Shown here: piece by piece, positions 35,601 to 44,600 of the stretch | Numbering within the stretch: position 1 is the first letter of the stretch | Layout: every line of letters starts with the position of its first letter | Assembly: GCA_037783545.1 (NCBI GenBank) | Contig: JBBELK010000328.1 | Span: 1,116,001 to 1,180,000 of the forward strand | Source of the DNA: Henricia sp. BOLD:AAB3569 | Lineage: Eukaryota > Echinodermata > Asteroidea > Spinulosida > Echinasteridae | DNA: 64,000 nt | Reading direction: 5' to 3' | Translations under genes and position numbers: made by a program | Notes under the pieces: model-generated | The model's database searches: none | Told to the model about the DNA's origin: nothing | What the model saw: only the letters and a program-made list of their open reading frames with translations

Positions 35601-38600
35601 GTTAAAATATTTTAATACAAACCACTGATTTTCCCACGTTGATGATGATGTATTTTATACCATCATATGCTAATATAGACAAATTTAATACAAAAATGAT
35701 GAAACTGTTTGTTTCAGCGCAACACAAACGTTGCCATGCGATTCCTTGGCCTTTGATACATATAATTCGCTACTAAAATCACTTGCCTCGGCATTATATA
35801 ACTAAAAACATGCCGTTTTAAGGAAATGGCGGCCATTTTGAATATATTACGTCATAATTAGGTCAAGGTCATTGCAATTTTTTTGGAGCATGGGATTTTA
35901 TTAATCTACATACCCATAGGAGTCTTTAAAAAAAAATTGGTGCTTTTGTCCACCGTGTCACGATCTTCGTGTTTTTTGTCCTTAATCCACCTCACTACAT
36001 CAGGTGTGATATTTGTCGCTTGGGAATTTTGAGTTTGCTTTGTTTGCCTGATCTTAGTTTTATTTTGGGCTATAAATTGTTGAGTTTTGTTGACCCTGTA
36101 CATGTACCTTCATAGTCTTTCTGACATTGTACCAACCGTTATTGTACATGTACATGTAGCACTCTAATGCTGTTTGTGTCTTATGGTTGAAAATTGTATA
36201 CGTATGCATGCATTTGAACCTAAGCCTTCTATTGAATTAATGGTGTGTAAACTTGCTTGAGGAGTTCCTGGTTTTAGACTCATTACACGCAAAGAACTTG
36301 TAATGATACTGTGATACTACAGGGGTCGAAATTAACCTGAATTTCATGCTGGTCAGAAGGACCAGTAGATTAGAGAACTCTACTGGTCCTGCTAAAAATT
36401 TGGTGGTCCACTGGTGCTTTTCAAAATGGCACCGAGATACTGCAACACTTTCTGGTTTAAGGTCATTGAGTGCAGGATGGATGGGATTGCTTATTGATCC
36501 AACACTGGGGCATGTCTGGAGAGATCGGAGAAAGAAATGTAGTTATCTGAAAATGTCTAAAGCGATCAGGAATTTTTTGTGGTAACCAGGAAATCTTCGC
36601 ATTGAGTAAGAAATGTTTACTGTGGATTAGGCATCAGAGAATGTTTCCATGAGTCGGTAAATGTTTTCACTGGTCCATTGGACCAGTGTCTTTGACAGTG
36701 GTCCTTCTGATTTTTTTTTACTGGTCTTGGACCACAGGACCAGTGTTAATTTCGACCCCTGTACTAAAATGTCTACATTTACCGTACCGGTAAGTTGTCT
36801 CATCCCATCTTTGATTGAATTACCAAGTCATGTTTGCCTTTTTGTTTCTAACGTTTACACGTACATTCTTGTTTTTTTTAAATGTCTCTTGCTGAAGGAT
36901 TGACAAGGTTTTCATGCAAATTTAAAGACAGAATTTCAGCTGAATAGATGCAGTAATAACTGTACTTCAGACAACAGACAACGTAAAACAATGTTTGATG
37001 AAAAATGAAATGTCTAATCGCATGATACAAGTAGAATGTTTACCTTGCAAAATTGCTGATATGAGCTGCTCAATTTACCCACAGAGAATGATGGATGAAA
37101 TCTTAGCTGAAGACACAGTGGGAATCACAGTGAATGAAACCCAACTGGCACCGAGTGACAACCACAGACAGACATTACAACGCTCTAGCTCTCTTGGCTT
37201 CAACTCAGAAGGTTAGGCTCAATACTGAGACTCCAAAATGCAGATCCATTTGGCAATTTAACCCTTAGCTGACGACACAATGGGAGTGAATGAAACCCAA
37301 CTGGCACTGAGTGACAACCACAGATAGACATTACAACGCTCTAGCTCTCTTGGCTTCAACTCAGAAGGTTAGGCTCAATACTGGGACTCCAAAATGCAGA
37401 TCCATTTGGCAATTTAACCCATTTAGCTGACGACACAGTGGGAATCACAGTGAATGAAACCCAACTGGTTCCCAATGACAACCACAGACAGACATTACAA
37501 CGCTCTAGCTCTCTTGGCTTCAACTCAGAAGGTTAGGCTCAATACTGAGACTCCAAAATGCAGATCCATTTGGCAATTTAACCCATTTAGCTGACGACAC
37601 GATGGGAATCACAGTGAATGAAACCCAACTGGCTCCCACTGACAACCACAGACAGACATTACAATGCTCTAGCTCTCTTGGCTTCAACTCAAGGTTAGGC
37701 TCAATACTGAGACTCCAAAATGCAGATCCATTTGGCAATTTAACCCTTAGCTGACGACACTATGGGAGTGAATGAAACCCAACTGGCTCCCACTGACAAC
37801 CACAGACAGACATTACAACGATCTAGCTCTCTTGGCTTCAACTCAGAAGGTTAGGCTCAATACTGAGACTCCAAAATGCAGATCCATTTGGCAATTTAAC
37901 CCATTTAGCTGACGACACGATGGGAATCACAGTGAATGAAACCCAACTGGCACCGAGTGACAACCACAGACAGACATTACAACGCTCTAGCTCTCTTGGC
38001 TTCAACTCAGAAGGTTAGGCTCAATACTGAGACTCCAAAATGCAGATCCATTTGGCAATTTAACCCTTAGCTGACGACACAATGGGAGTGAATGAAACCC
38101 AACTGGCACTGAGTGACAACCACAGATAGACATTACAACGCTCTAGCTCTCTTGGCTTCAACTCAGAAGGTTAGGCTCAATACTGGGACTCCAAAATGCA
38201 GATCCATTTGGCAATTTAACCCATTTAGCTGACGACACAGTGGGAATCACAGTGAATGAAACCCAACTGGTTCCCAATGACAACCACAGACAGACATTAC
38301 AATGCTCTAGCTCTCTTGGCTTCAACTCAGAAGGTTAGGCTCAATACTGAGACTCCAAAATGCAGATCCATTTGGCAATTTAACCCATTTAGCTGACGAC
38401 ACGATGGGAATCACAGTGAATGAAACCCAACTGGCACCGAGTGACAACCACAGACAGACATTACAACGCTCTAGCTCTCTTGGCTTCAACTCAGAAGGTT
38501 AGGCTCAATACTGAGACTCCAAAATGCAGATCCATTTGGCAATTTAACCCATTTAGCTGACGACACGATGGGAATCACAGTGAATGAAACCCAACTGGCT

Positions 38601-41600: not shown

Positions 41601-44600
41601 CCATTTAGCTGACGACACAATGGGAATCACAGTGAATGAAACCCAACTGGCTCCCACTGACAACCACAGACAGACATTACAATGCTCTAGCTCTCTTGGC
41701 TTCAACTCAGAAGGTTAGGCTCAATACTGAGACTCAAATGCAGATCCATTTGGCAATTTAACCCATTTAGCTGACGACACGATGGGAATCACAGTGAATG
41801 AAACCCAACTGGTTCCCACTGACAACCACAGACAGACATTACAATGCTCTAGCTCTCTTGGCTTCAACTCAGAAGGTTAGGCTCAATACTGGGACTCCAA
41901 AATGCAGATCCATTTGGCAATTTAACCCATTAAGCTGACGACACGATGAGAATCAGAGTGAATGAAACCCAACTGGCACCGAGTGACAACCACAGACATA
42001 TATTACAACGCTCTAGCTCTCTTGGCTTCAACTCAGAAGGTTAGGCTCAATACTGAGACTCCAAAATGCAGATCCATTTGGCAATTTAACCCATTTAGCT
42101 GACGACACAATGGGAATCAATCGAACCCAACTGGCTCCCACTGACAACCACAGACAGATATAACAACGCTCTAGCTCTCTTGGCTTCAACTCAGAAGGTT
42201 AGGCTCAATACTGAGACTCAAAAATGCAGATCCATTTGGCAATTTAACCCATTTAGCTGACGACACGATGGGAATCGGAGTGAATGAAACCCAACTGGTT
42301 CCCAATGACAACCACAGACAGACATTACAACGCTCTAGCTCTCTTGGCTTCAACTCAGAAGGTTAGGCTCAATACTGGGACTCCAAAATGCAGATCCATT
42401 TGGCAATTTAACCCATTTAGCTGACGACACGATGGGAATCACAGTGAATGAAACCCAACTGGCACCGAGTGACAACCACAGACAGACATTACAACGCTCT
42501 AGCTCTCTTGGCTTCAACTCAGAAGGTTAGGCTCAATACTGAGACTCCAAAATGCAGATCCATTTGGCAATTTAACCCATTTAGCAGACATGCGATGGGA
42601 ATCGGAGTGAATGAAACCCAACTGGTTCCCACTGACAACCACAGACAGACATTACAACGCTCTAGCTCTCTTGGCTTCAACTCGGAAGGTTAGGCTCAAT
42701 ACTGAGACTCCAAAATGCAGATCCATTTGGCAATTTAACCCATTTAGCTGACGACACAATGGGAGTGAATGAAACCCAACTGGCTCCCAATGACAACCAC
42801 AGACAGACATTACAACGCTCTAGCTCTCTTGGCTTCAACTCAGAAGGTTAGGCTCAATACTGGGACTCCAAAATGCAGATCCATTTGGCAATTTAACCCA
42901 TTTAGCTGACGACACGATGGGAATCAGAGTGAATGAAACCCAACTGGCTCCCACTGACAACCACAGACAGACATTACAACGCTCTAGCTCTCTTGGCTTC
43001 AACTCAGAAGGTTAGGCTCAATACTGAGACTCCAAAATGCAGATCCATTTGGCAATTTAACCCATTTAGCTGACGACACAATGGGAATGAATGAAACCCA
43101 ACTGGCACTGAGTGACAACCACAGACAGACATTACAACGCTCTAGCTCTCTTGGCTTCAACTCAGAAGGTTAGGCTCAATACTGGGACTCCAAAATGCAG
43201 ATCCATTTGGCAATTTAACCCATTTAGCTGACGACACGATGGGAATCGGAGTGAATGAAACCCAACTGGCACCGAGTGACAACCACAGACAGACATTACA
43301 ACGATCTAGCTCTCTTGGCTTCAACTCAGAAGGTTAGGCTCAATACTGGGACTCCAAAATGCAGATCCATTTGGCAATTTAACCCATTTAGCTGACGACA
43401 CGATGGGAATCGGAGTGAATGGAAACCCAACTGGCTCCCACTGACAACCACAGACAGACATTACAACGATCAACTATGGGTCCTTATATATAGGTCCTTA
43501 TTAGTTACTGGTTCATGTATATTGGGAGACTTTGAGATGCTTAGTGGCGGGAAACATAACGGTCCCACGTAACCAGTATGTGATTGTTTGGGTCACTCTC
43601 GAGCTGAAGTGTGCAAGCTCAAAATGGTTCAGACAATAATGGACTACGTGGGACCGTAGTCTTGGCTCCAAGACCTTCGTTGTTGGTTCGTTCTCATGGC
43701 GCGTCGATTCTGCTGTGTGATTGTTTCAATGCTGGTATCGATTCTTAAATTGGAAGATGAAGGTCTTGGATATTTGTTCTGTGGCTGCTTAACTTTTTCT
43801 TTGTTTTCAGCCAATTGATTCTCCCGAAAAGTCGGGGGAGCCAATCAGCAATCGAGATGAGATGCACTGATGATTTATTCAATGCGATTTGAAACCGTAA
43901 ACGAGTGCACACGTACGAATGTTAGTACAGTAAACACACACTGCATTGTATACAGCCCATAGAATGGGCACCACGTGATAAATATGATTGCAACACTGCA
44001 ACAGTGTAAGGCCAAATTTGCATACGACTTCATTATCACTGAATGTCATTAGTGCGGTTTGCTGCCACCAAGTATCTCAAAAGTGCCCAAAATGTCTATT
44101 GAAAATCAGAATAAGAATGTGATGGCTTGGTGTTTTTGTTTTCTTTTTGGCAGGTATCTTACCCCAGTCACTAAAGGCATCCAGTCCACCGACGGCAATA
44201 AAACGCAAACAGTGGAGTAAACCAGAGGTATGGACACTCGTGTGTCTGTTTCATTCTCTATCTAGAATGAAACAGACACAGATAGGGAGGGGGGAGGGTG
44301 GGGCTTGGTAGGGTTACAAGAGTTAAGGGAAGGCACCCATGGTCATTGAAAACATTCTAATCATCACCCAAAAACTGTTACTTTTTAACTCCTAGCGTCA
44401 AGAAAGGATTTTGACGGAGACCATTGAGGCAAGAAGGCCACACCTTCTCGTGTCCCTGGTCTTGGGTTTGATGACATTTTCAGTCATCTCCATAAATAAG
44501 AAAAGGGCAACATTTTAAGACTGGGATATGATTTTAGAGTTTAGGGGTTAGAGTATCACAATGTTAAACTAAATGGCTGACGTCACAGATTGTGCCAATT

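Follow-up and report, generated by a model that had tools for sequence, protein, structure and literature searches.

A tandem array seeded in an exon of sea-star CEP170, and its probable nature as an intronic minisatellite

When an exon has been copied dozens of times into the intron behind it, are the copies a supply of usable coding units, or have they become repeat DNA? The CEP170 gene of the sea star Henricia sp. BOLD:AAB3569 raises this question. We analyzed a stretch of 64,000 nucleotides (the window; C328:1116001-1180000, where C328 is a contig of a 740.7-Mb assembly) that holds this centrosome gene on the plus strand. Exon 14 of the gene is followed by a tandem array that the original prediction, made from the letters alone, described as about 39 splice-ready copies of a coding exon. 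Two readings were offered there: CEP170 proteins with a variable number of repeats, and a satellite born from the exon and ignored by splicing. It is the satellite reading that agrees much better with the evidence. The array is very probably an exon-seeded intronic minisatellite, which resembles non-coding repeat DNA rather than usable exons.

The identity of the gene, as predicted, is borne out by a Pfam CEP170_C match in the large exon at 27348-28921 and by the nearest relatives of the C-terminal 301 residues, which are sea-star proteins (Patiria 68%, Acanthaster 67% and Asterias 63% identity). In the spliced model, ten joined exons give one open frame from 24372 to the stop at 49761, which stays open through the conserved C terminus SDESEYYV. 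Exon numbers, taken from the original prediction and the present gene model, serve as labels only. Exon 14 finds one convincing match each in eight of the 11 ambulacrarian CEP170 proteins searched (echinoderm-type, the eighth match being weak with E 0.04) and none in the three hemichordate proteins.

Structure of the array after exon 14

The array and its parts are as follows.

37085-37211, plus strand: 127-nt founder exon 14 of CEP170, entered in phase 0 and left in phase 1, open in the spliced model
37103-43471, plus strand: tandem array with a unit of 156-164 bp, starting inside exon 14 (Tandem Repeats Finder and unit dissection)
37212-37268, plus strand: first spacer, the start of intron 14, carrying the founder donor GAAG/gttagg
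37269-43332, plus strand: 38 complete cassette copies with spacers (29 open, 6 frameshifted, 3 in frame with a stop)
43392-43471, plus strand: truncated last copy, with the same truncation point on the other haplotype

Tandem Repeats Finder (TRF) places the repeat at 37103-43468 with a period of 164, 39.5 copies and 93% matches. Splitting the array at its donors yields the founder exon, 38 complete copies and one truncated copy, and thus the predicted array of about 39 copies is real. The first cassette lies at 37269-37367 and the last complete one at 43228-43332; copies succeed each other in steps of 156-164 bp, with spacers of 57 or 59 nt. Cassette lengths among the 38 are 105 nt (19 copies), 99 (13), 103 (3) and 104 (3). 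The count of 29 open, in-frame cassettes among 38 agrees with the prediction. The nine defective ones comprise three with a 2-nt frameshift, three with a 1-nt frameshift (two of which additionally hit a stop) and three that stay in frame and contain a stop. The AG and GT are retained in all 38 window copies.

Each unit consists of exon 14 without its first 22 nt (127 minus 105; the prediction had 32), the donor and a spacer of 57-59 nt. Such head-to-tail copies of a single unit are what an intronic minisatellite presents, and the match of the duplicates to the exon together with its adjoining intron corresponds to the inter-boundary class of tandem exon duplication in the scheme of Exonize. 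The spacer is downstream intron. A contribution from the introns on both sides, as had been proposed, is rejected on the comparison of the two haplotypes: in the window, random stretches resembled the 3' part of the spacer as well as the end of the upstream intron does in 24/5000, 35/5000 (local), 8/5000 (collinear) and 5/4000 cases, but on the other haplotype the resemblance vanishes, with 1698/4000 random stretches as good.

The 38 window units comprise 27 distinct sequences. Identical units occur most often at lag 5 (5/33 pairs) and lag 9 (3/29, including one run of three), and particular frameshift and stop variants are each present in more than one copy. All four combinations of alleles are seen at 47 of 136 pairs of common variant sites, a mark of exchange between copies.

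The same unit is found on a second contig of the assembly, C559. For about 120 kb this contig is collinear with C328, and the aligned blocks (64 kb, counting exons and arrays) show 4.1% mismatches; elsewhere in the assembly, several kinase matches come as equal- or near-equal-scoring pairs on two contigs. Because of this collinearity and these paired contigs, C559 is, as judged from sequence, most likely the alternative haplotype, although it may be a large duplication instead. Its founder exon 14 differs from that of the window at 2 of 127 bases and is followed by 17 complete copies and one copy truncated at the same place. With the allele status of C559 taken from collinearity and the paired contigs, 38 versus 17 complete copies is an allelic copy-number difference, as is typical of minisatellites.

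These features suggest how the array may have formed. Tandem duplication would first have involved a segment that begins within exon 14, at the TTAG (37103), and reaches about 53-55 nt beyond the start of intron 14. Unequal exchange and conversion would later have raised the number of complete copies to 38 on one haplotype and to 17 on the other. The start of this segment lies 3' of the native acceptor; a copy therefore inherits the exon donor, while its one possible acceptor is the TTAG at the joint. In the most likely course of events, splicing connects founder exon 14 directly to the exon before it and to exon 15, and the array leaves as intron. We propose that such duplicates may be tolerated because the native acceptor is not copied, so that they are removed with the intron.

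Coding constraint and splice signals of the copies

If the cassettes were coding, selection should be legible in their differences. Among the frame-keeping copies and the founder, 25 change types are found, some of which depend on how a 6-base deletion is aligned. Of these 25, 16 are missense, 7 silent and 2 nonsense, close to the neutral expectation of 68-74% missense, 23-28% silent and 3-4% nonsense. Variable sites are spread over codon positions 1, 2 and 3 as 8, 8 and 9. The cassette varies at 25 of 105 sites and the spacer at 4 of 59 (Fisher P 0.006), which is the reverse of purifying selection on coding sequence. Even at codon positions 1-2 taken alone, 16 of 70 sites are variable (P 0.014 against the spacer); divergence there at least equal to that of the spacers was what the prediction had named as speaking against use as exons. 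As the copies share history, these P values, and the diversities given below, are rough. No coding constraint on the array cassettes is detectable, and no selection on the reading frame is seen.

The matrix used to score splice signals was built from CEP170 itself (13 donors, 13 acceptors). With it, the donors of the founder and of all 38 window copies reach 6.3 bits; the 13 other donors, each scored with itself left out, lie slightly higher (6.7-10.6), and 97.6% of 1801 intronic GTs lie lower. Acceptors of the copies score -1.1 bits (10 copies), -2.6 (27) and -5.2 (1). Of 1317 intronic AGs, 34, 46 and 66% respectively do at least as well, which is background level near the median; the founder acceptor, at 3.8 bits, is equalled or exceeded by 9% of the same AGs. 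With change types in neutral proportion and acceptors of this kind, the description of the copies as splice-ready is left unsupported. The joining of neighbors would in addition need introns of 57-59 nt, and the shortest of the nine introns between 24758 and 49534 has 326 nt, a limit that would be avoided by joining more distant copies. Nor can any copy follow the preceding exon in frame, as had been supposed: that exon ends in phase 0 and the cassettes start in phase 1, so that the founder must come first. By chance alone, one in three cases would show a phase match like that of exon 14.

Alternatively, the copies could be usable cassette exons that join the mRNA behind the founder, so that CEP170 isoforms would differ in their number of 33-35-residue Ser/Gln/Asn-rich repeats. 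Several observations favor this possibility and weigh against a silent minisatellite. The cassettes enter and leave in phase 1, and besides the 29 of 38 open in the window, 16 of 17 are open on C559; the donor score equals that of the founder in 38/38 window copies. Pairwise diversity in the window cassettes climbs with codon position (0.033, 0.053 and 0.069), the direction that weak constraint would give, although the variable-site counts differ from it; diversity is also lower in the final third of the cassette (0.019) than in the rest of it. The array consensus is identical between the haplotypes (0 of 164 positions different), whereas in five nearby intron matches, with one spurious opposite-strand match omitted, 5-12% of ungapped sites are different. 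Haplotypes are on average 0.040 apart in cassettes and 0.011 in spacers, and same-site variants common to both arrays are found at cassette sites 11, 22 and 101 and spacer site 17. We read the identity of consensus and the common variants as exchange between haplotypes; constraint, also possible, would look similar. Three accepted CEP170 acceptors score as low as the copies (-4.2, -2.1 and -3.0), and hence the rough 13-site matrix is a weak judge and the acceptor result suggestive only. These points have to be set against the neutral proportion of change types, the background level of the acceptors, the 57-59-nt gaps and the donors of two of the 17 C559 copies, which are destroyed (reading ATTAGG) and leave 14 of 17 copies both open and with a donor. 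Among 6825 database candidates (about 1200-3800 aa) no repeat protein was found at E<=0.001 against the repeat stretch. This is a weak test, as the species seems absent from the database (best relative 68% identical) and single-copy relatives were missed by the query too. A survey of self-identity (8000 candidates scored with a measure that has no positive control) disclosed no exon-14 repetition in the CEP170 of other animals among the best 120 of 3038 matches, the top value over two periods at lags of 25-44 being 0.293. Taken together, use of the cassettes as exons is quite improbable.

Nor is the array well explained by a non-coding role at the RNA or DNA level, for example as many U1-binding donor sites or through a conserved spacer element. 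The spacer is indeed the less variable part (4 of 59 window sites; 0.011 between haplotypes) and the 38 window donors are kept, but the copy number differs two-fold between the haplotypes and two C559 donors are lost. A structured RNA was considered and rejected: one unit folded as RNA is no stabler than shuffles (z +1.67), and at gathering thresholds the Rfam matches in the window are two tRNAs, none inside the array. We regard a role of this kind as quite improbable. Repeats such as these are hard to assemble, and the copy numbers are those of the assembly. The 27 distinct units, and two contigs bearing different arrays with the same end point, nonetheless make an assembly artefact extremely improbable. 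An exon-seeded minisatellite accounts best for the array.

Other exon-seeded duplications and the repeat landscape

Besides exon 14, four further exon-seeded tandem duplications are found in CEP170.

24671-24864, plus strand: 3' end of exon 8 with its donor, duplicated, 89 bp x 2.2 (TRF)
25968-26160, plus strand: first part of exon 10, 96 bp duplicated perfectly and in frame; single on C559
44154-44227, plus strand: exon 15, single in the window and followed by 12 tandem copies on C559
49694-50881, plus strand: array of 108/125-bp units that starts from the last exon, 11 copies with the founder counted

The repeat unit at exon 8 is the last 87 nt of the exon plus GT. It amounts to 2.2 units in the window versus 20-27 on C559, where TRF gives 27.3 units in one run, or 19.4 + 2.9 + 3.7 on the opposite strand, and where 25 core-motif matches are found. 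Exon 15 on C559 counts 13 copies including the founder, in 152-bp steps and with one broken donor. In the window the corresponding segment spans 155 bp and is bounded by TTAC on both sides, in the exon at 44159 and in the intron at 44314; its alignment to the C559 unit has gaps in the intronic portion. From this alignment the window exon 15 is read as the unexpanded state; it may also be a contraction from an array. As at exon 14, the exon-15 copies lack the native acceptor. Exon 14 read into an exon-15 copy at the inner AG meets a stop after 17 residues (three of the 12 copies translated), so the frame match of copies is not general. In the last exon, all 11 copies end in YYV and a stop codon, and ten of them follow the coding sequence; C559 has 10 copies of this array. 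A 131-bp x 14 array, C559:136004-137838, lies in the intron after exon 15; for that intron of the window no such array is listed by TRF.

The 17 listed exons amount to 4.2 kb of the window. Among arrays with a period of 60 or more, 4 of 6 in the window overlap an exon where 0.56 would be expected (P 0.001), as do 5 of 8 on both haplotypes (expected 0.77, P 4e-4) and, when the gene alone is counted, 5 of 7 (expected 0.94, P 7e-4). The choice of these tests followed inspection of the data, and they concern one gene with a slightly incomplete exon list. Arrays of this period are dense in general, with 27 in 142.5 kb (C328:1116001-1258503) and 29 in 160 kb (C559:5001-165000). Recurrent tandem duplication beginning inside exons would produce such minisatellites, and at exons 8, 14 and 15 the duplicated span extends past the donor and does not take in the native acceptor. 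A donor-side span was rejected as a rule: the exon 10 duplication and a neighboring minus-strand stretch, read by eye, include an acceptor, and these acceptor-containing duplications leave the donor-side span as a tendency at most. That exons, and their 3' ends with the donor in particular, are preferred seeds of tandem amplification in this genome, and that haplotype-specific exon-born satellites accumulate and occasionally supply frame-compatible copies for possible repeat proteins, is a tentative and rather doubtful generalization; exon seeding was assessed in CEP170, and outside it one minus-strand stretch was seen.

That stretch, L016:4306-4709 (minus strand; C328 about 1214306-1214709), is exon-like (MPNLTLELYFIVHLLTAKGSAPSIDN...) and partly tandem-duplicated, 145 bp x 1.8, with the acceptor side included. 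It lies in a neighboring gene and may resemble codanin-1; Pfam returned no match for the stretch. A 492-codon frame at L020:7026-8501 (minus strand) overlaps a 141-bp array and has a Pfam match to a gypsy-type transposon family. A screen of the flanks for constrained open frames (675 tested) was used only to choose frames for Pfam; the four chosen gave transposon-type matches in one, with one of two above the cut-off.

Within the window, a 32-bp satellite of about 123 copies occupies 60048-64000 and runs to the window end. A 490-codon open frame at 57353-58825 (minus strand) contains a 21-bp in-frame repeat stretch (INGSHSG) and has no Pfam match. Open frames at 6228-7264 (minus strand) resemble, by eye, a Tc1/mariner-type transposase. 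The two tRNA matches of Rfam, at 4607-4679 (plus) and 16182-16253 (minus), have modest scores and are possibly tRNA-derived repeats.

Two features of the gene model stand apart from the arrays. An 18-nt microexon, LLFHFV, at 30487-30504 with AG/GT flanks lies in the intron before exon 14 and matches an insert that 6 of the 11 ambulacrarian proteins carry (those of Acanthaster, Lytechinus, Amphiura and three hemichordates). An AT-AC intron at 10051-12741, GGATATG/ATATCCTTTT ... TTCCTTGAC ... CAC/ATCCAGTAAC, looks U12-type by the consensus of that class; joining across it restores the reading frame of the FHA region.

Relation to known systems and meaning

Ordinary hypervariable minisatellites consist of head-to-tail units, change by unequal exchange and have allele-specific lengths. 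The CEP170 array differs from them in its unit, which is composed of the 3' part of an exon, a donor and intron. It also resembles tandem exon duplication. Such duplication is described as abundant, also in untranslated regions, with unannotated copies, intronic ones among them (PMC9013439), and Exonize distinguishes 'inter-boundary' from 'intronic' matches (PMC12343006). Here, too, exon sequence is copied beside its source, and the match takes in exon and intron together (PMC9013439, PMC12343006). Unlike examples such as nine hydra first exons or eight pip clusters, dozens of near-identical copies are present, several exons of one gene are involved, and copy number differs between two contigs, most likely haplotypes.

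Two systems in which many exon copies are used offer a further comparison. Titin PEVK, with >100 exons, resembles the array in that many short, similar exons grow and shrink in number by tandem duplication, but PEVK exons are annotated from cDNA in human and mouse, while the copies of the array are without the native acceptor and no coding constraint on them can be detected (PMC6469411). Mutually exclusive clusters such as Dscam1 likewise place arrays of exon copies after one gene position; there the copies are used alternatives that give many isoforms, and here acceptors are weak and coding constraint goes undetected (PMC9013439). No such array in CEP170 was found among the titles and abstract starts listed in a literature search.

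For gene predictors the locus is a caution, as 29 open cassettes with GT and AG make a tempting and probably false repeat protein. An array of this kind could in principle give rise to a repeat protein; none of the evidence here shows one. Within one conserved gene, tandem duplications start from five exons, and the two haplotypes present them at different stages, including exon 15 in what we read as its unexpanded and expanded states. The locus thereby allows a view of exon copies arising, multiplying and staying, most likely, silent, and it poses the question of whether the presence of the native acceptor is decisive for the use of a duplicated exon.

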